A stretch of 24,083 bases of DNA. It comes from a virus. This document shows positions 1,369 to 22,286 of this stretch, piece after piece (within the stretch, counting starts at the first letter, position 1; every line of letters starts with the position of its first letter). The notes under the pieces were generated by a model. That model made no database searches. It was not told where the DNA came from and was given only the letters and a program-made list of their open reading frames with translations. The stretch is from positions 1-24,083 of the IMG/VR virus record IMGVR_UViG_3300045999_008283. One strand, 5' to 3'. The position numbers and the translations under genes were made by a program.

Positions 1369-2739
1369 TTATCTCAACAAGACGTGTTGGTTAGCTGCTC
1401 TCGTGATCAGGTTGCACTCAGAGCGGTAGTTGAATCTAGCAACGTCCTCACCGTCAGTTGCGTAACCAAGGATAGAACCAGTTACGAAGTGCTCGATGTC
1501 TCTGTTGTAGTTGCCTGCCGCCTTGTAGTTCATCTCAAGGGCAGGAGCCTTCTCGCCAGTCTTCGCATCAGCGACAGTGGTAAGAGGAATCATCGCGCCT
1601 TTGTAGTAAGAACCAGCAGAGGTCAATCCAGAAATAGTAGCATCGTTCAACATCTTCCAGTCATGCTTGTGGAAAGTGTAGCCGCCTCTCGTGAACGATT
1701 TAAAACCAAGCTGAATAGCCATGTTTGCATCGTTGTTGAAAGCGCCAAACTGACCAGGAAGACCAGCAGTGACCTGCGTAGCAATGCCTTGAGCAAGCAA
1801 ATCATCAATGTCCAAAGAGGTTCTACGATCGACATACATAGCGTATTCCATCGGAGCGCCTTCCTTGTCCAATTCGAGGATGATTTGGTCCATGTCCGTG
1901 ATAGAAGCAAAAGTGCCTTGAGTTCCACCAGATACATCTGCAACAATGCCTCTGGTCTCAAGTGCTTGGAAATAACCCTCTGATCCAGTAACGGTTCCTT
2001 CGTTCAAGGTGATGCTAGCGCTTCCTTTCTGGCCAAACACCATCATCATCTCTCTCTGATTCATGAAGCGCTTGCGAGCGTCCATCTCGTTTTTGTGGTA
2101 CCACAAGTACGATCCGTTTACATTGACCCATCCAATGTTCGTGGCTTGGGAGCCGTTAACGATGAACACTTCCTTCGTAATGAACAGAGGGTTTGTGTAT
2201 TTCTCAAGATCAGTCTGGTAAAAAGCAGTGGGCTGCTTTGTTCCCTGTGCGTATATGTTACCAATAACAGCAGCTTTGTAGGTGCCGCTGAGTATTTCCG
2301 TAGTATTCCCGCCTTTCAGCGATTTCACATTTATGTTTCCATTAGTAGCAGTGCTTGTTACAACTACTCTTTGTCCATCGTGAAGCAGCAAAACATCATT
2401 AACTCTTACTTCGTCCTCAACGCCCGTTTCAACGGTTATGGCCGCAGGTGAAGCGGCGGTCATGGCGCTATAGGTAAACGTCTTGTGAAGACGGCCTTCT
2501 TCCCACCAGGTCACCTCGTCTGCTACAGCGGCAGATTTCTTGGCATTAGTGAGTTCCAAAAACCCAGTCAAGCCTTGATCGCCGTATGCCTTAATCAAAA
2601 GGTCTCTGTTGTCAGGCTTGGTAGGGTTAATCAAAGCCCCCAGTGTGGTATATGCTTCTGGGGTAGTTTTAAGCGTAGGGCGGTCGCCGCTGCCAAAAGC
2701 TGGGCGAGCGGAGCCGCCTGTCGTGTTTGAAATTGCCAT
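1369..2739 (-). CDS. Probable major capsid protein
   Basis: A 456-residue protein of typical capsid size, lying directly downstream of an acidic scaffold-like gene and upstream of a probable decoration gene. The N-terminus is flexible and Gly/Ser/Thr-rich, followed by helical segments (DNRDLLIKAYGDQGLTGFLE). A beta-rich central part includes an aromatic stretch followed by a charged helix (GSYLWYHKNEMDARKRFMNQ, then REMMMVFG), a pattern I associate with capsid proteins of Bacteroidota phages. The later part (SITDMDQIILELDKEGAP; MYVDRRTSLDIDDLLAQG) looks like HK97-fold A-domain and spine elements. No cleavage site is obvious and no protease gene adjoins. The A-rich leader (ACTAAACAAAAATGGC) and the downstream hairpin fit high expression. 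The assignment is from context and overall pattern, not from a diagnostic motif. Confidence 0.78.
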   Translation of the reverse strand: MAISNTTGGSARPAFGSGDRPTLKTTPEAYTTLGALINPTKPDNRDLLIKAYGDQGLTGFLELTNAKKSAAVADEVTWWEEGRLHKTFTYSAMTAASPAAITVETGVEDEVRVNDVLLLHDGQRVVVTSTATNGNINVKSLKGGNTTEILSGTYKAAVIGNIYAQGTKQPTAFYQTDLEKYTNPLFITKEVFIVNGSQATNIGWVNVNGSYLWYHKNEMDARKRFMNQREMMMVFGQKGSASITLNEGTVTGSEGYFQALETRGIVADVSGGTQGTFASITDMDQIILELDKEGAPMEYAMYVDRRTSLDIDDLLAQGIATQVTAGLPGQFGAFNNDANMAIQLGFKSFTRGGYTFHKHDWKMLNDATISGLTSAGSYYKGAMIPLTTVADAKTGEKAPALEMNYKAAGNYNRDIEHFVTGSILGYATDGEDVARFNYRSECNLITRAANQHVLLR

Positions 2740-2759: not shown

Positions 2760-3779
2760 TTAGAGGAATTTTATGCCTCCACCCCCAAATCCCAAAGCTT
2801 CTCTTAGCTGTTCAGTAAGGGGGTCTTGGCCGTTATTTGTGCCTCCTTGATTCGGCGTCCTAGTGCTTACGTTAGCCGCTTTATTCACTATGTTCTTTTG
2901 ACCATCGCTCATCCCTTGTCTGTATGCAGACGTAAGGATTTCATTGATGTTATCAAGAACGGTTCTGTGCATATTCAGCATGTCGTAATCCCAAGATCCA
3001 TCCTCGCGCACGTAAGGATCGAAGAACTCGTCAAGGCGAGTGTTTTTGTCATAGAGCTGAGCCTTGTATCTCTCATCAACGCCATAAGTGAACTTCTTTC
3101 CGTTAAGATCAAACTCGATCCCTTCGAAGTCGTTCAGGTTCTCGCGCATCTGATTTACCCAAGACTCATCCACTATGGAGCTGTAATCGCTGGCGCTAGC
3201 CTGAGGCAGTTGGTAACTGTTTCTGACGTCCTCTATGGAACGTCTTGCGGTAGCAGCATCGATTCTCAGTTGGATAGAAGAAAGCTTAACCTCGTCCTCT
3301 CCGTAGACGTCTGGGTTAAGTTTGTACTTGCTGCTGACGAAAAGATCAATCTCTTCTTGAGAAAGGTTAGGATATTCTGCCGATGTGTTCAGTCGGATGA
3401 CTGACAGGTCGTCCATTTCGGACGGATCGATCGACTGATAAACAAACCAATCTCTGGGATCGCGGCCAGTCTTCTCGACAAACTCCGCGATGACTGCTAT
3501 TCTTTCGTCAATAGCTCTTTCTCTATCTCTATATTCGATCAAGTCGTCGAGAGAGCTAACATTCTTACCCAGCCTTTCGCTCAGGTAATTGAATACAGCG
3601 CTGTCTACGTCTTGATCAGTATAGGTTTCTGTTTGTTGTGAGCCGTCATCAAAGTACGACTCTTGAGTCTCATTCTGCGGCTGCTCTTCTATGAATTGCT
3701 CTTCTTGCTGAAGGGCACCATTCACTTCTTCTTCATCCACAAAACGAAACGTAGTTTCTTCATTGTTTTCAAAGGACAT
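2760..3779 (-). CDS. Putative scaffolding / head morphogenesis protein
   Basis: A 339-residue protein with a very acidic, Glu/Gln-rich N-terminal 60 residues (VDEEEVNGALQQEEQFIEEQ) and several predicted helices. The C-terminus is low-complexity, Gly/Asn-rich (NQGGTNNGQDP) and ends with a short hydrophobic tail (GFGGGGIKFL). The stop lies 20 bases before the capsid ATG, so the two genes probably share an mRNA. An acidic, helical, disordered-tailed protein immediately upstream of the capsid gene is the usual picture of a scaffold, so the call is positional and compositional. No protease triad was recognised. The alternative is a portal-associated or internal head protein. Confidence 0.6.
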   Translation of the reverse strand: MSFENNEETTFRFVDEEEVNGALQQEEQFIEEQPQNETQESYFDDGSQQTETYTDQDVDSAVFNYLSERLGKNVSSLDDLIEYRDRERAIDERIAVIAEFVEKTGRDPRDWFVYQSIDPSEMDDLSVIRLNTSAEYPNLSQEEIDLFVSSKYKLNPDVYGEDEVKLSSIQLRIDAATARRSIEDVRNSYQLPQASASDYSSIVDESWVNQMRENLNDFEGIEFDLNGKKFTYGVDERYKAQLYDKNTRLDEFFDPYVREDGSWDYDMLNMHRTVLDNINEILTSAYRQGMSDGQKNIVNKAANVSTRTPNQGGTNNGQDPLTEQLREALGFGGGGIKFL

Positions 3780-5673: not shown

Positions 5674-11961
<6,288 letters not shown>

Positions 11962-11962
11962 G

Positions 11963-12337
11963 TTATTGAGTTACAGTTATGTCTTCTTTTACGGTAAATG
12001 TTCCATACAACCAAGTTTTTACCACTGGTGGTGACGCATTTGTGTAAGTCTGTAAATCATAAACGTATATACCAGAAGGGATCGCCTTCATAGACGTGGC
12101 ATCTTTCTTGACATAAAGGACCTTTCCATTCTCTGTTAAAGAGTCAAATTCCATTTCAAGAAGATAGCCAGTGGCTCCAGCATCGTTTGTATCGTCGTAC
12201 TCTGACCTTCTAACCTGCATCTTGAAAGATCCGTTTGAACTCATGTCCTGACCAAAGTCTATAGACAGCCCAAACGTATCGCCCCTTCTACAAACTATAT
12301 CTAGTCTAGAAGATGAGTCTATTATTGCCTTTGCCAT
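11963..12337 (-). CDS. Small beta-sandwich-like structural protein
   Basis: A 124-residue protein with the core [19 protein letters not shown], then [12 protein letters not shown], then [12 protein letters not shown] and a C-terminal [14 protein letters not shown]. The CRRGDTF-hydrophobic-F opening and the Y-x-Y-D-L-Q strand are typical of short Ig- or baseplate-like proteins that accompany phage fibre genes. The start overlaps the portal stop by one base (TAATG), and the stop lies immediately before the collagen-like gene. It is therefore translated between portal and fibre and may serve as the fibre's attachment adaptor. The family is not securely identified. Confidence 0.72.
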
Positions 12338-14826
12338 TATCTTCCTAGTATTCTTGAGATTATTCCTGTTGAAATTTCCTGTGCTGCTTCAGCGGCCTGC
12401 TCTCTTATTTCTTCTAACTCTCCTCTTTTCCCGTCTCTCTGAGAGATCAGCTTGCTCTGCTCTACTGCTTGCTTCTTAACTCTCTCGTCCTTTCTATCCT
12501 CCTTCATGTTCTCCACTTCTTTCTTGAATGAGTTTTCCGCATCCTTTGAATAAGCGTATGCCTCGGCCTTTATCTGCTCTATCTCTTTTCTAAGCTCGTG
12601 AAGCGCTTGCTCTACCTGCACTTTAAGCTGAGCTTCAAGCTGCATCTCCTGAGCCTTTATCTGAGACTGAGCCTGCAACTCCTGCATTCTAATCTCTGCG
12701 GACTGTGCAGCCGACTGCTGCTGCATCTGTGCCTGCATCTGAGAGTTCTGCATAGCCATCTGCTGCTGAGAAGCCATACGCTTCTTTCTTCTCAAGATCA
12801 ACAGCTTCTCTGCTTGATTGATGTCCTTGAGCTGACGTATCGCTATAGCGTCCTCTATGTCAAGCTCTTTCTGTGAAAGGGAGATCTGTATGTTGTTTTC
12901 GAGATACTGCTTCTCAATCTCCTCCATGTCTTTTACTACAGTGATGCCGAAGTTAAACATGTACAAGTCAGAGAAAGAAGAGATCACCTTCATATTGTGA
13001 GCTCCGATGGCGTTCTCATATACTCTGAAGATAACAGAGTCGTTCGGGATGATCTGTATGCTCTTTATAACGTCAGCGCAAACCTTCTTGTACAGTATCA
13101 GCGAAGAGTTCGTTATATCATATATGGCGTTGTTTCCAGCGCTAATAGCCTGCTGTCTAACCCCAACAAGCTGGTCTCCCTTAGGAGACGAACCATCCAT
13201 GGCCTCGTTGATACCAGTGGTGTCTCGTATCATCCTGAGGTAGTGGTTGTATATACCTATAAGCTCGTTGATGTTTCTTATAGTGTTACCTATCTCTCTG
13301 ATCGGAGGATTCTGGAATCCACCCTCTGGGTTCTTACTTCTGTAGTAGAAGACGCCAGTCTGCTCGTATATATCATGCAACTCAAGCGGTTGGAGATCGC
13401 CTCCTTTGCCAAGTTGCACATTCTCCAGTCCTTCGATGTCGATGATGATACCGTCTGGCTTCGCCTTAGCTATAGACTGCTGGAGTTTTAGGTGAGAAAG
13501 TTGTATCTGGTCAGCAAACCCTATGCAGCTATCCACCATAGACTTAGGGATCATATCCCTCATATTCACTGCTACGGCAGAGTATGATAGGCATGCCCTA
13601 GTTATGTCGTGCATATTCTTTGGTATGTTGGTCTTCTTGCCGTAATTAAAGATCTTATTGCAGCAAATTACCATGCAACCACCATAGACTACCATGTTGT
13701 CCAGCTTTACTGGGCGTCTTTCGAATACGGAGTTCTGAGGGGCTTTATATGCCTCTCCTTTGTAGTGGAAACCTACGTTTCCGTGTCTGTTCTCTTTTTC
13801 TTCGAAGTAAATGACGTCATTGCACAAGAACTCAAAATCAAGCACATCTATCATATACTCGTCATACCCATATCTAACGCTTCCAGTCCCGCTGTCATAC
13901 TGCCTCCTGGTAAGTCCGTTCACATCGAGGCTGTACATCTTTTGAGCCGCTTTCGCTATTTCTTCGTACTCCTCTTCTGTAAGCTGATCCCCAGCAATTC
14001 TCTTAAGCTCCTGTATGGACATATGCTTCACATGACCAGCGTAAGTCATGTCAGAAAGGTTGGGGTCTTCAGTGTAGCTATGTATGAAGTTCGAAGGATC
14101 TACGTATTCTGTAACTATCCCGTAGTTAGGGTCGTTATTCCTCTTCACCGCAGCCATACCTAGAGTGGCTATGTCGTTTACGCAGCGCCTGAAGATATTG
14201 TCATTGAAGTCGCTCCACTCAAGCGTAAGGTTTGTGGCTATCTGAGCGGCCACCTCTGCGGTAGTCTTTATGTTCTGACCGAAGAAAATCTCTGCTTCCT
14301 CCAGTGTGTCTGGCAACTCATCGGGATCAACTCCGATAGTCATTCCAGTCTTTTGTTTTATATCACTGAGAGCCTGCTTAGAATTTATAAGCATCTCCAT
14401 CTTTCTCTTTTCTTTGTCTTTTGCAGAAGAAGAAAGAGGGTCTATAGCCTCTACGTTAGGATATGGGGCCTGAGATAGGATCTTGTTTACTACGATTCTA
14501 ACAAACTTCGGAAGTATAGGAACTGGAGTAAAGTCTATGTTCATCATGCTTCCGTCCCCGTTGTTAGGATCAGAAGAAGTGAGCAGCTGTCTATATATTA
14601 CTGTGTCTTGAGTTCCGTTCGCGTAATCTCTATTTCTTTCAAAATTTTTATACCTTCTTCTATACAAAGAAGAGTCCTCATCAAATCTGCCCCACTGCTT
14701 GTATATTGCCTTCGCATACGCCAACCCATACCCAGCAGTAGCCTTCTCTTCCGAAGACGCCAACGGGTTTGGGAAGCTCCCAGAAGAAAGTTGAACACCT
14801 CTATTTTTGTTTCCGCTTTTGTACAT
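12337..14826 (-). CDS. Portal protein
   Basis: An 829-residue protein from the ATG at 14826 (MYKSGNKNRG). The frame is open to 14865, but that extension would cover an inverted repeat and a putative promoter, so I chose the inner ATG. Portal features include PKFVRIVVNKILSQAPYPNV near residue 110 and FNDNIFRRCVNDIATLGMAA in the wing. The clip/stem region has IGNTIRNINELIGIYNHYLR, then RDTTGINEAMDGSSPKGDQL; TGINEA with a D-G-S-x-P-K loop is characteristic of portals in crAss-like and related phages. The last 200 residues are a Gln/Met/Glu-rich coiled coil that could form the crown inside the head. It directly follows TerL, as usual for packaging modules. The long C-terminal helix makes it larger than many portals. 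Confidence 0.9.
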   Translation of the reverse strand: MYKSGNKNRGVQLSSGSFPNPLASSEEKATAGYGLAYAKAIYKQWGRFDEDSSLYRRRYKNFERNRDYANGTQDTVIYRQLLTSSDPNNGDGSMMNIDFTPVPILPKFVRIVVNKILSQAPYPNVEAIDPLSSSAKDKEKRKMEMLINSKQALSDIKQKTGMTIGVDPDELPDTLEEAEIFFGQNIKTTAEVAAQIATNLTLEWSDFNDNIFRRCVNDIATLGMAAVKRNNDPNYGIVTEYVDPSNFIHSYTEDPNLSDMTYAGHVKHMSIQELKRIAGDQLTEEEYEEIAKAAQKMYSLDVNGLTRRQYDSGTGSVRYGYDEYMIDVLDFEFLCNDVIYFEEKENRHGNVGFHYKGEAYKAPQNSVFERRPVKLDNMVVYGGCMVICCNKIFNYGKKTNIPKNMHDITRACLSYSAVAVNMRDMIPKSMVDSCIGFADQIQLSHLKLQQSIAKAKPDGIIIDIEGLENVQLGKGGDLQPLELHDIYEQTGVFYYRSKNPEGGFQNPPIREIGNTIRNINELIGIYNHYLRMIRDTTGINEAMDGSSPKGDQLVGVRQQAISAGNNAIYDITNSSLILYKKVCADVIKSIQIIPNDSVIFRVYENAIGAHNMKVISSFSDLYMFNFGITVVKDMEEIEKQYLENNIQISLSQKELDIEDAIAIRQLKDINQAEKLLILRRKKRMASQQQMAMQNSQMQAQMQQQSAAQSAEIRMQELQAQSQIKAQEMQLEAQLKVQVEQALHELRKEIEQIKAEAYAYSKDAENSFKKEVENMKEDRKDERVKKQAVEQSKLISQRDGKRGELEEIREQAAEAAQEISTGIISRILGR

Positions 14827-14835
14827 TAAAAGGCG

Positions 14836-14858
14836 TATTTGCGATATTTCCGCAAATA
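14836..14858. repeat. Perfect inverted repeat in the TerL-portal gap
   Basis: TATTTGCG (14836-14843) and CGCAAATA (14851-14858) are exact inverted repeats separated by 7 bases. They fill most of the 40 bases between the terminase stop and portal ATG. One arm overlaps the TATATTTG element on the minus strand. The structure could be an operator or a weak RNA hairpin. No U-tract follows directly, which argues against an intrinsic terminator. Confidence 0.55.
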
Positions 14859-14860
14859 TA
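14853..14860 (-). promoter_or_regulatory. Candidate -7 element upstream of portal (TATATTTG)
   Basis: The reverse strand reads TATATTTG, a match to the Bacteroidota TAnnTTTG consensus, 26 bases before the portal ATG and overlapping one arm of an inverted repeat. It shares the extended string TTATATTTGC with the element at 4328. No clear -33 TTG is seen, and most of the upstream sequence lies inside the end of terL. Confidence 0.35.
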
Positions 14861-14866
14861 ATCAAA

Positions 14867-16993
14867 CTACCTATGCCACTCTTTTATCTTATATGTTCTG
14901 AAAAACGTCTTGTCTACAAACGAAGACGTCTTCTTTTCTTCTTTAGCTTTCTGAGCGGCAAGCAGCGCATATCCAGAACTAATAGTTAAGTCAAACTTAG
15001 TTCTGTTATTTATGTCAAACCCGATCCAGTCTTCAAGCGTTCTGTTGAAGTGCATGTTCCCCATTTCAAATGTCTCGCTATTCATGCCAACGTGGTTGTG
15101 TATGAAGTTTTCTATAGCCTGGGCGTGAGCATGCACTACGTCAGCAGAGCTGGATGGTATGCCCCGAGTCTTTACGTTTGCGTGAGAATTTGCAGATCTC
15201 AAGAAGTCTGGTCTCTCCATTAAATACTCCTCATATCCCCTAGCTTCGAAGTATCTGAATATCCCGTATTTGTTGTTCTCTACTAGCAGCGGATAGCCAT
15301 AGAAGAAAGCGCACATAAGTACATCTTCGTAAAAGATACTAGCTAGGTCTGGTCTAGAGTTGTATTCTACTACAAACATGTTAGATGGGACCTCCATGTT
15401 AAACTTATTGTATAAGTGCATGGCGCCTTTAGATCCTCTTCCGTCTACTGTAGCGTCAATATCATACGTATCCACCCCGCCACACCCTATGTGACCGTTA
15501 GGCGGTACTAACTTTCCTTTCTCCTCCCTGATCACATTCCTCTTCTCTTGAGGCGGCATCCAGGACACCTTAAACCTACCCTGCGGAGTAGGTGAGAACA
15601 TCACCGCTCTATCCTTGTCCTTCCACATGAAGTTTCCTGTAACTACAGGATTTGGGAATAGTTCGTTGTTGGCGTCTATCTGCTGGTATATCTTACCAAT
15701 ATTGAAGATGCTTCCTTCGATGCTATCCCTAAACGCCTCGTCCTCTGTAAAAGAGAACTGCCTGATAACTTCGTTTAACTCCCTTGGGTCGTGTTTTAGC
15801 GCTTCACGCTCGTTTCTCAAGAATGTCTTTGCCCCTATTGCAATCTTCTCTCCATCTATGCCCTCTACTTCTTTTTCTGGATTCTCTATAACTGCATTAC
15901 CGTATATATCAAAGAATCCCTCCAGAGCCTCATAAGCTGGTATGTATATCGAGTATAGTCCGCTTACAGTTCTTCCGTTCTGGTTTCTCTTCCCAGGGTC
16001 GGATTCATTCCATAGCTTCTTGTACTCTTTACCTCCTTTATCCATGGGATTTACCGTACTGCCTACAAGCGCCTTTCCTATGATCTTTTTACCTACAATC
16101 AAGCAAGTCCTTTCGATCCTCCAAGCTTCTTTTATGTCAGAAGGCTTCTCCCACTTACCAGCCTCATCGAGATAAAGCATATGCAGCTTCTCACCGTCAT
16201 ATGCGTTGTTCGTGGTGTTTTTCCAGTTGACGATCGTATTCAGGGCGTCCCCCATCCTTGAAGTCTTATTTGACTTCGTAATCCTTTTAGACGGTTCTCT
16301 AAATGCCAGCTCCATCCTTGGGTTTGTTGTGCCGTCTTGGATAGGCTTGAAGAAGAATGGGTAATTCTTAAACACATTAACCACCTTTTTCATGAAGATG
16401 TTTTCCTGAGCGTCTTTACCAGTCTTCGACTGTATGCCAAGAAGTTTGTCTTTAACCTGAGTAGCTTCATCCACAAGTACGGCGGAACATATATTGGTAT
16501 AGCCAGAACGACGGCACTTAGTATAAAGCTGGCCAAGGCAACGGTCGTCAACCTCGCAAGCAGCCAGATGAAGAAATATCTCACGTTGAAACTGTAAAAA
16601 GTTAGGATAACCTATATCCATCTTCGTCCACTGCAAGAACATATAGTTTCTTCCAGTTATATATGTTGGAACTCCGTTGTTATAAAACCACACCCCGTCT
16701 CTCCTCCTCTTAAACTCTTTCTCGATGAAAGGAGAGTGTTTGTTTCTAAATTCCTGGGGTCTCTCCATCCACTCATCCATAGTTTTTATCCTAGAGAGTT
16801 CAGGTGGAACCTCCACCCTCCTCCAGAACTGCTTGTTCTTGGGCAGGTCGTGGAACAGTATGTCTTTCTTTGCTGGCTGCTTAGGCAATACAACAAGAAG
16901 CCCATGAAGCTCGATTGTGTCTCCATGGGTTCCGTTTGGATCTATCACTATTCCTTTTTCCTTGTACCCCTTTATGTCTATTAGAAAACTCAT
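14867..16993 (-). CDS. terL: Terminase large subunit
   Basis: A 708-residue packaging ATPase/nuclease that drives DNA into the prohead through the portal. The N-terminal ATPase domain has a degenerate Walker A around residues 159-166 (KCRRSGYT), lacking the classic GKT/S. Walker B with catalytic Glu follows at 271-280 (HMLYLDEAGK), and a coupling motif at 309-316 (LVGSTVNP). The C-terminal RNase H-like nuclease contains a first acidic residue in GCGGVDTYDID (about 504-513), a second region VVEYNSRPDL (541-550) and LLVENNKYG (569-577). The portal gene follows. The upstream neighbour is a glycosyltransferase, not a small terminase, so TerS is either elsewhere or unrecognised. R/K-rich variant P-loops are common in TerL families. 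Confidence 0.95.
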   Translation of the reverse strand: MSFLIDIKGYKEKGIVIDPNGTHGDTIELHGLLVVLPKQPAKKDILFHDLPKNKQFWRRVEVPPELSRIKTMDEWMERPQEFRNKHSPFIEKEFKRRRDGVWFYNNGVPTYITGRNYMFLQWTKMDIGYPNFLQFQREIFLHLAACEVDDRCLGQLYTKCRRSGYTNICSAVLVDEATQVKDKLLGIQSKTGKDAQENIFMKKVVNVFKNYPFFFKPIQDGTTNPRMELAFREPSKRITKSNKTSRMGDALNTIVNWKNTTNNAYDGEKLHMLYLDEAGKWEKPSDIKEAWRIERTCLIVGKKIIGKALVGSTVNPMDKGGKEYKKLWNESDPGKRNQNGRTVSGLYSIYIPAYEALEGFFDIYGNAVIENPEKEVEGIDGEKIAIGAKTFLRNEREALKHDPRELNEVIRQFSFTEDEAFRDSIEGSIFNIGKIYQQIDANNELFPNPVVTGNFMWKDKDRAVMFSPTPQGRFKVSWMPPQEKRNVIREEKGKLVPPNGHIGCGGVDTYDIDATVDGRGSKGAMHLYNKFNMEVPSNMFVVEYNSRPDLASIFYEDVLMCAFFYGYPLLVENNKYGIFRYFEARGYEEYLMERPDFLRSANSHANVKTRGIPSSSADVVHAHAQAIENFIHNHVGMNSETFEMGNMHFNRTLEDWIGFDINNRTKFDLTISSGYALLAAQKAKEEKKTSSFVDKTFFRTYKIKEWHR

Positions 16994-16996
16994 TAC

Positions 16997-17884
16997 TCAA
17001 CCAATCAAGCTCTCTATTTCTGGTATCCAATATTCATCTACTATTTTTTTCCAGCTTCTACATCTAACTACCTCTTCATGTAACTTGCTGGTATAAACGT
17101 CAATCAGCTCTTTATTTCTTTTGAATGTGCTTATAATATCAACAGCCTCTCGTACTCCGTCAAATTTAATCAACGAGCTGAACTCAGCTGATATACCAAC
17201 CCTTGTGGATATAAATGGTATTTTTGCTGCCGCACACTCTAATAAAGCCATTGGATTTCCTTCTTGAACACTTGTACACACAACCATATCACATCCGTCA
17301 TATATTCTAGATCCAGCCATAAAATCCTTTCCATATATGTATCTAATCTCAACTCCAGATTTTCTGCATATATCTAAAAACATATTTGACCTTTTTACAG
17401 ACTCATATTCTTCTTTTCTATATACCGTCGGGTCGTAAACTATCCCGACAGTTTTTATTTCTTTTATTTCTTTTTTATCCCAAAACTCATCATCCACACC
17501 TATAGGCAAAAGTCCAGCGTCAACAGAATATCTTTTTTTTATCGAAGACACTACATCACGGCTTATCCCAAAAACTCTGTGATCGTTTATTACATCAGAA
17601 AAATCCGTATCATATAGTGGTTCAATCACGTCAACGCATTGATGATGAAAAACTGGAATAAACTTTACGTTTTCTTTGGTAGAGTATCCCCTTTTCTTTA
17701 GCATCAAAACATCGGCTGTAGATATAACAACATCAAATAAACCTCCAATAGCTATTTTAACCTCTTCAGGATTTTCCCAATGAAAAACACATACATTGTA
17801 TTTGTCAGACAAGTGTTTCTTAAGAAAGAAATTTATACTTGCCAGAGCCCACTTTTCTGGTCCTAAGAGCGCTATGTTTTTCAT
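16997..17884 (-). CDS. GT4-like glycosyltransferase
   Basis: A 295-residue protein with a Rossmann-like N-terminal half (MKNIALLGPEKW; FDVVISTADV). The C-terminal nucleotide-sugar domain has the signature SVQEGNPMALLECAAAKIPF at residues about 205-224, with the E-x7-E pair (E208, E216), followed by STRVG. This is typical of GT4-family (GT-B fold) retaining transferases, although the protein is shorter than most (about 350-400). The start overlaps the thyX stop by 4 bases (ATGA), and the stop lies 3 bases before terL. Donor, acceptor and linkage are unknown; a virion protein, host glycan or modified DNA base are possible targets. Its coupling to packaging genes suggests late expression. Confidence 0.85.
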   Translation of the reverse strand: MKNIALLGPEKWALASINFFLKKHLSDKYNVCVFHWENPEEVKIAIGGLFDVVISTADVLMLKKRGYSTKENVKFIPVFHHQCVDVIEPLYDTDFSDVINDHRVFGISRDVVSSIKKRYSVDAGLLPIGVDDEFWDKKEIKEIKTVGIVYDPTVYRKEEYESVKRSNMFLDICRKSGVEIRYIYGKDFMAGSRIYDGCDMVVCTSVQEGNPMALLECAAAKIPFISTRVGISAEFSSLIKFDGVREAVDIISTFKRNKELIDVYTSKLHEEVVRCRSWKKIVDEYWIPEIESLIG

Positions 17885-19348: not shown

Positions 19349-20506
19349 TTATTTCATTGAGTACCAACCATCTCCCCTAAGACCGTGGATTTGCGTGAAT
19401 GCTCTATCGTACATCTTGCTCACACTCTCGAGTCCGTATTTTTCTCTAGCGTTCTTAGCTATTGACTTTCTGTCAAGTTTATCACTAGCATCTATTGCGT
19501 CCATCCATTCCTTCAATGTCTTACATCGGAATCCGTTTACCCCATGGTCAACAGTCTCCGCAAAAGCCCCGTAATCGGTGGTAATCAACGGGGTCCCGCA
19601 GAGTAATCCTTCGACTCCAGCACCTCCAAACGGTTCAATATACTTGGTTGGCATTAGCTGACATACCGCGTTTCTTATGAACTCGTTTCTTTCCATCCCT
19701 TTAAGCACTCCAACATATTGTATGTTGTCGCAAAGATAAGGCGTTGGGTCGCCTTGCCCAGCAACCTTCACTGGAATTTTTGATCTCTTTGCTATCTCTA
19801 CTATAGTATCCAATCCTTTTATATCACCTATCCTCCCCATGAAGGCTATATACTTTCCTTTTTTATAGCTCGGGCTCCATTGATCTAAGTCATAGTAGTT
19901 TGGTATAACGAAGTTGTAGTTTAACCCGTGGACAACGTCATCCTTTCCGTGCCAATAATGCAGCTTTGCGTAGCTTTCGAATATCTTAAAAGTTCCATTC
20001 AGCACGTCTGGGTATCCGATTCCAGTCTCTACGTGGCTGTGATTTGGGAACATCCCAACCATAGATGCGTGAGCTATCCCAAATGGATGACAGATTATGT
20101 CCCCATCCTTTAGATTGTTTACCAAGGCTGGAATCAGCCTCTCTTCAAAAAGTTTGTGGTGATCGCTGCCAACTACCGCGTCGTTACCATAGAAGTCTTC
20201 GTCTCTTTTCTTTGAAATCATAGAGAACAACTCTTCTTTAGTAAGCATTACGTGTTTTTCGTCAGCGGTGCTTTCTGATCCTTCATTCGAATACTCAATA
20301 ACCTTGTATCCCCGCATTTGCATCATCTTTGGGAATCTCAACGCCTTCCCAGTAAACGCGCAATGAGAGTGTTCGTCAGAGTGAACAGTGTGAAATATCC
20401 CTATTAAGTGAAGTGTAGGCTTGTCCTCCTCACTTTGAGAACTTTTCCGCAAATCCGCCAGAAAAGTCTTTGCCTTGTTCAATTTGCGTCCCAGAATCGA
20501 GTTCAT
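19349..20506 (-). CDS. GT4-family glycosyltransferase
   Basis: A 385-residue GT-B-type transferase. The N-terminal acceptor domain has TLHLIGIFHTVHSDEHSHC (31-49); a linker leads to NYNFVIPNYYD. The C-terminal donor domain has YIAFMGRIGDIKGLDTIVE (219-237) and the hallmark IEPFGGAGVEGLLCGTPLIT (290-309), with the E-x7-E pair E291 and E299, then GFRC and a C-terminal helix. All parts expected for GT4 are present at normal length. The first 77 bases overlap the preceding coiled-coil gene in another frame. Substrate unknown; targets may be virion glycoproteins, cell-surface glycans or glycosylated DNA. It is the second GT4-like enzyme in the window, not a close copy of the one at 16997. Confidence 0.9.
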   Translation of the reverse strand: MNSILGRKLNKAKTFLADLRKSSQSEEDKPTLHLIGIFHTVHSDEHSHCAFTGKALRFPKMMQMRGYKVIEYSNEGSESTADEKHVMLTKEELFSMISKKRDEDFYGNDAVVGSDHHKLFEERLIPALVNNLKDGDIICHPFGIAHASMVGMFPNHSHVETGIGYPDVLNGTFKIFESYAKLHYWHGKDDVVHGLNYNFVIPNYYDLDQWSPSYKKGKYIAFMGRIGDIKGLDTIVEIAKRSKIPVKVAGQGDPTPYLCDNIQYVGVLKGMERNEFIRNAVCQLMPTKYIEPFGGAGVEGLLCGTPLITTDYGAFAETVDHGVNGFRCKTLKEWMDAIDASDKLDRKSIAKNAREKYGLESVSKMYDRAFTQIHGLRGDGWYSMK

Positions 20507-20723
20507 TTAACAAATCATTTAATTTTTGTCTTTCAATTATTAACTCCTTACAGTCTATTGCTGTTTGTTTTATTGATTGCAGCTCTGCTTTTCTGGCGCT
20601 GCCTCCAGCATCTGGATCAACTGGCTTTTTTATCTCCTCTATCATGTTATTGATAGCTTGAGACATAGCATCCATAAGCTTTCTAGCTGCTTCGGCGTTA
20701 GAAAATTCAGTTTGTTTCGACAT
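20430..20723 (-). CDS. Small coiled-coil protein
   Basis: A 97-residue, mostly helical protein with heptad-like runs (AARKLMDAMSQAINNMIEEI; LIIERQKLNDLLNEL) and a C-terminus DFSGGFAEKFSK. No enzyme motif was recognised. It starts inside the end of the co-chaperonin-like gene (17-base overlap) and ends 77 bases into the glycosyltransferase gene. Both overlapping frames look protein-like, so I keep both. The Gly-Gly-Phe tail after an acidic helix resembles small conserved proteins of Bacteroidota phages, but that is pattern memory only. Confidence 0.72.
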   Translation of the reverse strand: MSKQTEFSNAEAARKLMDAMSQAINNMIEEIKKPVDPDAGGSARKAELQSIKQTAIDCKELIIERQKLNDLLNELDSGTQIEQGKDFSGGFAEKFSK

Positions 20724-21291
20724 ATAGAAGATCTATAAGACGTATTCTCAAATAATCCTTTCCGTCAATCTTGAATTTATATCCAAACTTAGGATTGAAT
20801 ACCACCACGTCTCCGATATTGATGCCTATTTCATCAAAATAGTCTGCGTAAAAAGCCACTTTGCCCTTCTTCGTGTCTTCTTCCTTAAACTCTATGACTT
20901 CTATAATCTCTGATAGCTTCTCCTTCTCTTCAACTACTGGCTCTAATACTGCCCAACCTCCAAGAGGAATTACCTCGTCAGTTCCTTTCTTCCTATAGGC
21001 TATTGCTTGGTTGTTTATGGCTGTTTCAGAGTAATTTACGATATAGGAATCCTTCTCGCCAGTAAGCGGTTGTCCGTCGTTTACTACCACGTGATGATGG
21101 AAGTACAGTGTGTCCCCTGGTGAAACACCCGTTTCAAACTTATAAGGAACAGCTACTACTTCTGCTTCGTTGACCCTGTGCTTAAACTCATCGTACTTAG
21201 GGTCAACATACAGCTCAATGCCACCAGCGATCGTTATGGTGTCATTCATCTTCTTTTCCATCGTTACGATGAACGCTTCTAGAGGTTTCAT
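20707..21291 (-). CDS. Tandem GroES-like co-chaperonin
   Basis: The protein has 194 residues from the ATG at 21291, placed directly after the preceding stop (TAAAATG). An in-frame extension to 21315 would overlap the upstream gene. The second half is GroES-like: IPLGGWAVLEPV (108-119) as the first strand, GKVAFYAD (143-150), then IGDVVVFNPKFGYKFKIDGK (159-178) and IRLIDLLYVE (183-192), matching GroES GDIVIFNDGYG and SDILAIVE. The first half has MKPLEAFIVTMEKK, a mobile-loop-like AGGIELY (22-28; GroES AGGIVLT), EAEVVAVP and VSPGDTLYFHHHV. It would cap a GroEL ring during folding of phage proteins, as gp31 does in T4. No GroEL is visible, so the host chaperonin would be used. The domain assignment is by eye. 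Confidence 0.7.
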   Translation of the reverse strand: MKPLEAFIVTMEKKMNDTITIAGGIELYVDPKYDEFKHRVNEAEVVAVPYKFETGVSPGDTLYFHHHVVVNDGQPLTGEKDSYIVNYSETAINNQAIAYRKKGTDEVIPLGGWAVLEPVVEEKEKLSEIIEVIEFKEEDTKKGKVAFYADYFDEIGINIGDVVVFNPKFGYKFKIDGKDYLRIRLIDLLYVETN

Positions 21292-21292
21292 T

Positions 21293-21532
21293 TTAAAAGT
21301 CGAGGTCGTATTCAATTATACAAGGCATATTTTCTATGGTCTTCCAGGCTACCTGGCTTTCGGGCTCTTGCACGTATATGACGTACTTAGTAACCCCGTA
21401 CATATCGAAAGAGTCTTGATCGAATACTATCGAGCATATGTTTCCTCTTCCTACGCTCATCCCTACGTAGTAGGCCATCCCGTCTTTCTTAGGATCGCGG
21501 CCAGCTACTATCTTCCTGATAAGGCCGTTCAT
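21293..21532 (-). CDS. Hypothetical protein
   Basis: A 79-residue protein, MNGLIRKIVAGRDPKKDGMA, with a beta-like core (KYVIYVQEPESQVAWKTI) and an acidic end (CIIEYDLDF). The start overlaps the upstream stop by one base (TAATG). The stop lies one base before the co-chaperonin ATG (TAAAATG), so the three genes are translated as a chain. No family recognised. Its coupling to the co-chaperonin may point to a related early or middle role. Confidence 0.7.
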   Translation of the reverse strand: MNGLIRKIVAGRDPKKDGMAYYVGMSVGRGNICSIVFDQDSFDMYGVTKYVIYVQEPESQVAWKTIENMPCIIEYDLDF

Positions 21533-21857: not shown

Positions 21858-22286
21858 ATGCCTAAGTCCAGGGTCCCAAAGGTGAGGATGTTCAGGGAGT
21901 TTTCCTACATGAAACCCTACTTTGTGGGGAAAAATCACCTCAAACGCATGAAGCAGAACAGGACTAAGTTCTTGGATTCTTCTGAGGTATCTCAAAGCGA
22001 GCTGGAGTTCTTGTTGTGGGCTTACGACCTAGAGTTCTTCACCATCAAGTTCGCTAGTGAAGACTATGAAATGAATGCTGGGAACCTTTCTAGCAGGATC
22101 CTCTATCCGCTTATGAATAGTGGGTATATATACAAGCATTTCGACAAGCTTACTTCTTCAGATATGTACGAAGACCATCTGTTTAGGGGTGAGACCAAGT
22201 TTAACTACAGAGTTCGCTATGCGCTTACTCAGAAGGCTAGGCTGTGCGTGCAGAGGTTCTACAATATGTTCGATCACCTCCCCTGA
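21858..22286 (+). CDS. Divergent protein, probable winged-helix DNA-binding
   Basis: A 142-residue basic protein, the only gene on the plus strand. The N-terminus is basic (MPKSRVPKVRMFREFSYMKP). A helical segment follows (SEVSQSELEFLLWAYDLEFF), then a putative recognition helix (NLSSRILYPLMNSGYIYKHF) and a wing-like hairpin (RGETKFNYRVRYALTQKARL) before a final helix. This helix-helix-helix-wing order with Y-x-L-T-x-K-[AG] resembles MarR-like winged helices. Its divergent position at a compact promoter region fits a regulator controlling itself and the minus-strand run, as many phage regulators do. The last 13 bases overlap a convergent small gene. A non-regulatory DNA-binding role is possible. 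Confidence 0.75.
   Translation: MPKSRVPKVRMFREFSYMKPYFVGKNHLKRMKQNRTKFLDSSEVSQSELEFLLWAYDLEFFTIKFASEDYEMNAGNLSSRILYPLMNSGYIYKHFDKLTSSDMYEDHLFRGETKFNYRVRYALTQKARLCVQRFYNMFDHLP

Follow-up and report, generated by a model that had tools for sequence, protein, structure and literature searches.

A probable phage-encoded co-chaperonin of two tandem GroES-type domains preceding the terminase, portal and capsid genes

Double co-chaperonins are textbook knowledge for chloroplasts; Cpn20 of chloroplasts and apicoplasts, like the phage protein described here, consists of two GroES-like domains arranged head to tail. Bacterial GroES is a single-domain protein, and the phage T4 co-chaperonin gp31, whose known client is the T4 capsid protein, has one domain per chain and assembles into a homoheptamer. 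T4 gp31 is devoid of roof loops, and a wider opening is thought to result (PMC6318259); Plasmodium cpn20 retains the roof hairpins (PMC3542282). The solutions found in Cpn20 for a seven-fold partner are mixed seven-domain rings with Cpn10 or one site or domain left unused (PMC5780408, PMC3542282). No description of a double GroES of phage origin was found in the literature searched.

The window, that is, the whole 24,083-nt stretch of IMGVR_UViG_3300045999_008283 analysed here, is a genome fragment (24 kb), and from its terminase, capsid and MAG relatives we infer a host among the Bacteroidota. The co-chaperonin gene is packed inside a run of minus-strand genes (window ORFs). Its start lies one base past the stop of a 79-codon gene located upstream, and at the other end it shares 17 bases with the 97-codon gene that follows. 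An alternative in-frame TTG is located upstream at position 21315, whereas the relatives start with ATG. The features of the gene are as follows.

20707–21291, minus strand: two-domain GroES-like co-chaperonin gene; ATG start, intact 194-codon frame, 194 aa
20992–21291, minus strand: GroES-like domain 1, divergent, residues 1–100; profile–profile E = 1e-5 to GroES, own AlphaFold model
21169–21258, minus strand: domain-1 loop at the GroES mobile-loop position, residues 12–41; G-I-E-L at 21211–21222
21118–21150, minus strand: place of the GroES roof hairpin in domain 1, residues 48–58; short, hairpin absent, gap relative to E. coli GroES
20974–20991, minus strand: inter-domain linker, residues 101–106; in the model, no strand between E96–100 and E107–109
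20710–20973, minus strand: GroES-like domain 2, canonical, residues 107–194; Pfam Cpn10 above cut-off, hhalign to GroES E = 1e-10, Cpn10 chains at Z 7–9
20866–20937, minus strand: domain-2 mobile loop, residues 119–142; predicted flexible, conserved S-D-h-I-E-V-V
20815–20856, minus strand: place of the GroES roof hairpin in domain 2, residues 146–159; short, hairpin absent, 7-residue gap relative to E. coli GroES
20430–20723, minus strand: 97-aa gene overlapping the co-chaperonin stop; in relatives at the same place, 46–84% identical

The 194-aa protein was confirmed to consist of two tandem GroES-type domains, residues 1–100 and 107–194. The second half scores 25.4–29.8 bits against Pfam Cpn10 (PF00166), with 29.8 bits over residues 107–189 and a curated cut-off of 21.1 bits, and a Cpn10 match at E ≤ 0.01 is present in 52/52 relatives. 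Residues 1–192 align with positions 1–199 of the 200-position model of PHROG 13932 (co-chaperonin GroES) at E = 3e-40. For the first half, nothing significant was obtained in the Pfam, PDB-sequence or single-sequence hhalign tests. The failure in hhalign is not counted against GroES, because T4 gp31 fails the same test; gp31 itself has no significant hhalign match to either half. The profile of half 1 matches that of GroES and phage single GroES proteins with a score of 35.2 over 69 columns (E = 1e-5) and in the expected register; 100 permutations of the columns gave no score above 16.5, and the reversed control reached 14.2. When the two halves are compared directly, only the GDxxxF region shows similarity (E = 0.002). 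A PDB-sequence match to CpcN (8imn, E = 0.0013) is spread across weak repeats and was set aside. The GroES landmarks claimed earlier for both halves can indeed be aligned in register with E. coli GroES: AGGIELY with SAGGIVLT and VSPGDTLYF with VKVGDIVIF in half 1, IGDVVVFNPKFGYK with VGDIVIFNDGYGVK and IRLIDLLYVE with MSESDILAIVE in half 2.

The AlphaFold model of the whole chain, calculated from the alignment of 52 relatives, has a mean pLDDT of 87.2 and a pTM of 0.82. Its closest PDB structure is chain R of entry 7ekq (titled CrClpP-S2c), superimposed over 168 residues in both halves with Z = 10.5 and an rmsd of 4.2; this chain we take to be Chlamydomonas Cpn20, the chloroplast double co-chaperonin, within the chloroplast ClpP complex. 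The remaining top matches of the whole model are single GroES or Cpn10 chains lying on half 2. With half 1 as a separate model (pLDDT 85.9, pTM 0.75), the 14 best structural matches are all GroES, Cpn10 or gp31 chains (Z 5.0–6.5); GroES-like domains from alcohol dehydrogenases rank next. Foldseek gave a weaker result with half 1, the top match being GroES at E = 0.02. The original prediction of a fused double co-chaperonin, for which a profile match of half 1 and a GroES fold of each half had been named beforehand as the checks, is thus borne out by both the profile match and the predicted folds.

The loop of half 1 carries G24 in 52/52 relatives and G24 with hydrophobic residues at positions 25 and 27 (G-h-x-h) in 48/52, the tripeptide region being mostly G-L-E-L. 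The earlier statement that a clear tripeptide in the mobile loop is limited to half one needs correcting: half 1 does carry the motif, but half 2 also possesses a conserved hydrophobic loop, S-[DE]-[IVL]-I-E-[VI]-[VI] in the 52 relatives. The half-2 loop is predicted to be the more flexible, with a pLDDT of about 62 (blocks 121–140) versus about 84 in the half-1 loop. The latter is longer than that of GroES, and its strong conservation extends past the tripeptide. Because of the fairly ordered prediction, the extra length and the conservation outside the tripeptide, the half-1 loop may serve a role other than GroEL binding. Among distant relatives, the half-2 loop is shortened in elemo and Manatee, which have a recognisable motif in half 1, while in phi40:1 the half-1 motif is gone and N-G-L-R-V is retained in half 2. 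The roof-hairpin segment is short and constant in length in both halves of 52/52 relatives.

More than 570 relatives of the double co-chaperonin are present in IMG/VR, and the 52 aligned ones are all full length. The window protein is 20–26% identical to the versions from isolate phages. Database names for the double protein are chaperonin cpn10, co-chaperonin GroES or hypothetical protein, and ‘chaperonin cpn10’ is listed among the core genes of Pervagoviridae (PMC8776804). The members of PHROG 13932 (Cellulophaga phi18:3 gp096, Calle_2 gene 13 and elemo gp30) are full-length homologues in the same gene position; their two-domain nature is not mentioned in the database entries or the literature searched. 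To look for a cellular origin, 296 Bacteroidota genomes were searched. Among the matches listed, the alignments of the best cellular GroES proteins fall essentially within half 2 of the double model, and the sole full-length match is located on a phage-like contig. This contig, from an Ekhidna MAG (L152 / G024), carries the co-chaperonin, terminase and portal genes in the same order; the match is viral, not cellular. The identity to Cpn20 is 15%, and the phage-borne version, in contrast to Plasmodium cpn20, has no roof hairpins in either half. With a roof-loop segment that is short in each half throughout the 52 relatives, the phage protein is filed as a functional analogue of Cpn20 and not as a Cpn20. 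Its origin is likely independent.

The genes for DNA packaging and the capsid follow the co-chaperonin gene in the window.

14867–16993, minus strand: terminase large subunit; PHROG 6681, E = 1e-205
12337–14865, minus strand: portal protein; PHROG 6547, E = 7e-192
2760–3779, minus strand: gene between the portal and capsid genes in a scaffold-like position; putative role, from position and homologues in relatives
1369–2739, minus strand: major capsid protein candidate, 456 aa, proposed client; PHROG 13704 (virion structural), E = 1e-122

The order double GroES, terminase, portal, capsid is conserved in the window clade and in phages elemo, Manatee Spring, phi18:3, phi40:1, Calle_2 and Panino. 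The double GroES of annotated phages is encoded by the gene preceding the terminase or by one near it. In a set of 50,697 phage records, relatives of the window capsid protein were found in 85 and the double co-chaperonin in 77 + 8 = 85. Both tallies by organism are the same (Flavobacterium 68, Cellulophaga 15, Caudoviricetes 1, Maribacter 1), the comparison being one of organism tallies and not of every accession. As 68 of the 85 records are near-copies of elemo, the co-occurrence amounts to about six lineages, including that of the window, and one contrast. The latter is Tenacibaculum phage Gundel_1 (L205), which has a related terminase and a divergent capsid gene relocated far from it, and in which no GroES of either kind, single or double, was found. 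The equality of the double co-chaperonin tallies with those of the window's capsid family, and the position of the gene ahead of terminase, portal and capsid, are newly noted here.

A single-domain GroES is encoded beside the double one in six reference genomes belonging to five lineages: phi18:3, elemo, Manatee Spring, phi40:1, Calle_2 and Panino (phi40:1 and Calle_2 being one lineage). Five of the six, namely elemo, Manatee Spring, phi40:1, Calle_2 and Panino, also encode GroEL, which has been reported for Panino (PMC11590407); phi18:3 has the single GroES but no GroEL. Related phages of Flavobacteriia with genomes of only about 60 kb (L143, 2465–4278; L142, 18672–20001) contain a complete GroEL and a single GroES besides the double GroES. 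Sensitive profiles detected neither a second GroES nor a GroEL in four window-clade genomes with matching ends (114 bp, 256 bp, 2.7 kb and 77 bp) and one 46-kb contig. An ordinary GroES is present in 60/61 genomes of Bacteroidota, the presumed host group.

Proceeding from the two GroES domains, the family, the gene position, the co-occurrence with the capsid gene and the partner gene content, we infer ring formation, GroEL binding, stoichiometry and client as follows. It is probable that the tandem protein is the phage counterpart of Cpn20, forming the lid ring of GroEL with the capsid protein as the main client. Each double chain would take two neighbouring positions of the ring, which would dock through its hydrophobic mobile loops on a GroEL-type chaperonin, at the apical domains, and close the folding chamber. 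In the window clade this would be the host GroEL, because the four end-matched genomes encode none. Since both domains lack the GroES roof hairpin, as does T4 gp31, the lid would probably be open at the top. Gene position, co-occurrence and the precedent of gp31 make the major capsid protein of the phage itself, whose gene belongs to the same late block, the likeliest client. The seven sites would most simply be filled by three double chains and one single GroES (3 × 2 + 1 = 7), the latter coming from the phage itself in most of the isolate lineages and from the host in the window clade; alternatively, four doubles could be used with one domain left out. The seven-fold mismatch had been expected to require an unusual solution, but chloroplast and apicoplast Cpn20 already solves it: Cpn20 and Cpn10 form seven-domain rings, and lids of six or eight domains also work with GroEL (PMC5780408, PMC3542282). 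A single GroES co-encoded by the phage fits a mixed seven-domain ring, and the window clade would then depend on host GroES or an eight-domain solution. That the mixed ring of three phage doubles and one single GroES is obligate, serving as a counting device with the single mostly phage-made in isolates and host-made in the window clade, we consider unlikely; if true, the lid in the window clade would be a phage–host chimaera redirecting the host chaperonin to one capsid family.

Other arrangements of the same protein have to be weighed against the lid ring with seven occupied sites. A closed ring of four doubles, with one of its eight domains unused on the seven-fold GroEL and the single GroES unneeded, is possible, if somewhat doubtful. 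Arabidopsis Cpn20, reported to be tetrameric, works in this way, concatamers of six or eight domains work with GroEL (PMC5780408, PMC3542282), and the window clade has no single GroES; however, a single GroES is co-encoded in 6/6 isolate or reference genomes checked, and the hosts (60/61 Bacteroidota genomes) have one of their own. Similarly tentative is the suggestion that one half only is the GroEL-binding lid domain and the other is degenerate or a client-binding module. The divergence of half 1 and its lack of a Pfam match, the shortened half-2 loop of elemo and Manatee and the lost half-1 motif of phi40:1 are consistent with it, while the conserved hydrophobic loop residues in both halves of 52 close relatives and the GroES fold predicted for both argue against it. 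Half 2 is the more canonical GroES domain and the one with the loop predicted to be flexible. The division of labour with one active half put forward in the original prediction was not established, both halves keeping a conserved hydrophobic loop in the window clade.

A GroES-fold ring repurposed to cap the ClpP protease of the host or to serve in the packaging machine would agree with 7ekq as the closest PDB structure, where the chloroplast co-chaperonin was solved together with ClpP, and with the gene abutting the terminase in several phages. This is nonetheless very unlikely in view of the retained mobile-loop motif and the co-encoded GroEL and single GroES in several genomes, and a DNA-binding domain was not seen in the protein. 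The common form of GroES is single-domain, and two genes might have been joined through a sequencing or assembly error, but the same two-domain frame recurs in more than 570 metagenomic relatives and in isolates from several laboratories, so that an artefact is hardly conceivable. Assembly fusion was rejected on account of the full-length PHROG 13932 member, the 52 full-length aligned relatives and the independent isolates.

If the preferred reading of a GroEL lid for the capsid protein is true, a widespread phage double lid that lacks roof hairpins and is linked to a single capsid family would represent a second case of the Cpn20-like design, one that probably arose independently. It would raise the questions of how an even-numbered lid fits a seven-fold chamber and whether capsid folding drives the evolution of phage chaperones. 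Cellulophaga phages phi38:1 and phi18:3 and the Flavobacterium elemo phages offer tractable small systems.

Several neighbouring genes deserve mention. The 97-aa gene at 20430–20723 (minus strand) has no Pfam or PHROG match. Throughout the clade it stands beside the co-chaperonin, near the terminase, and it may have a small-terminase role. Between the co-chaperonin and terminase genes, two glycosyltransferase genes (16997–17884 and 19349–20506, minus strand) flank genes for MazG and ThyX. They may be recent insertions, since no homologue of either was found in relatives G005, G006 and G010, whose gene order otherwise matches. An open frame of 142 aa (21858–22286, plus strand), without a Pfam match and on the opposite strand within the minus-strand run, looks like a real gene. 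The 2095-aa protein encoded between the portal and capsid genes (5674–11961, minus strand) contains 14 Pfam collagen-repeat stretches (E = 3e-115) and is likely a fibre-like virion protein.
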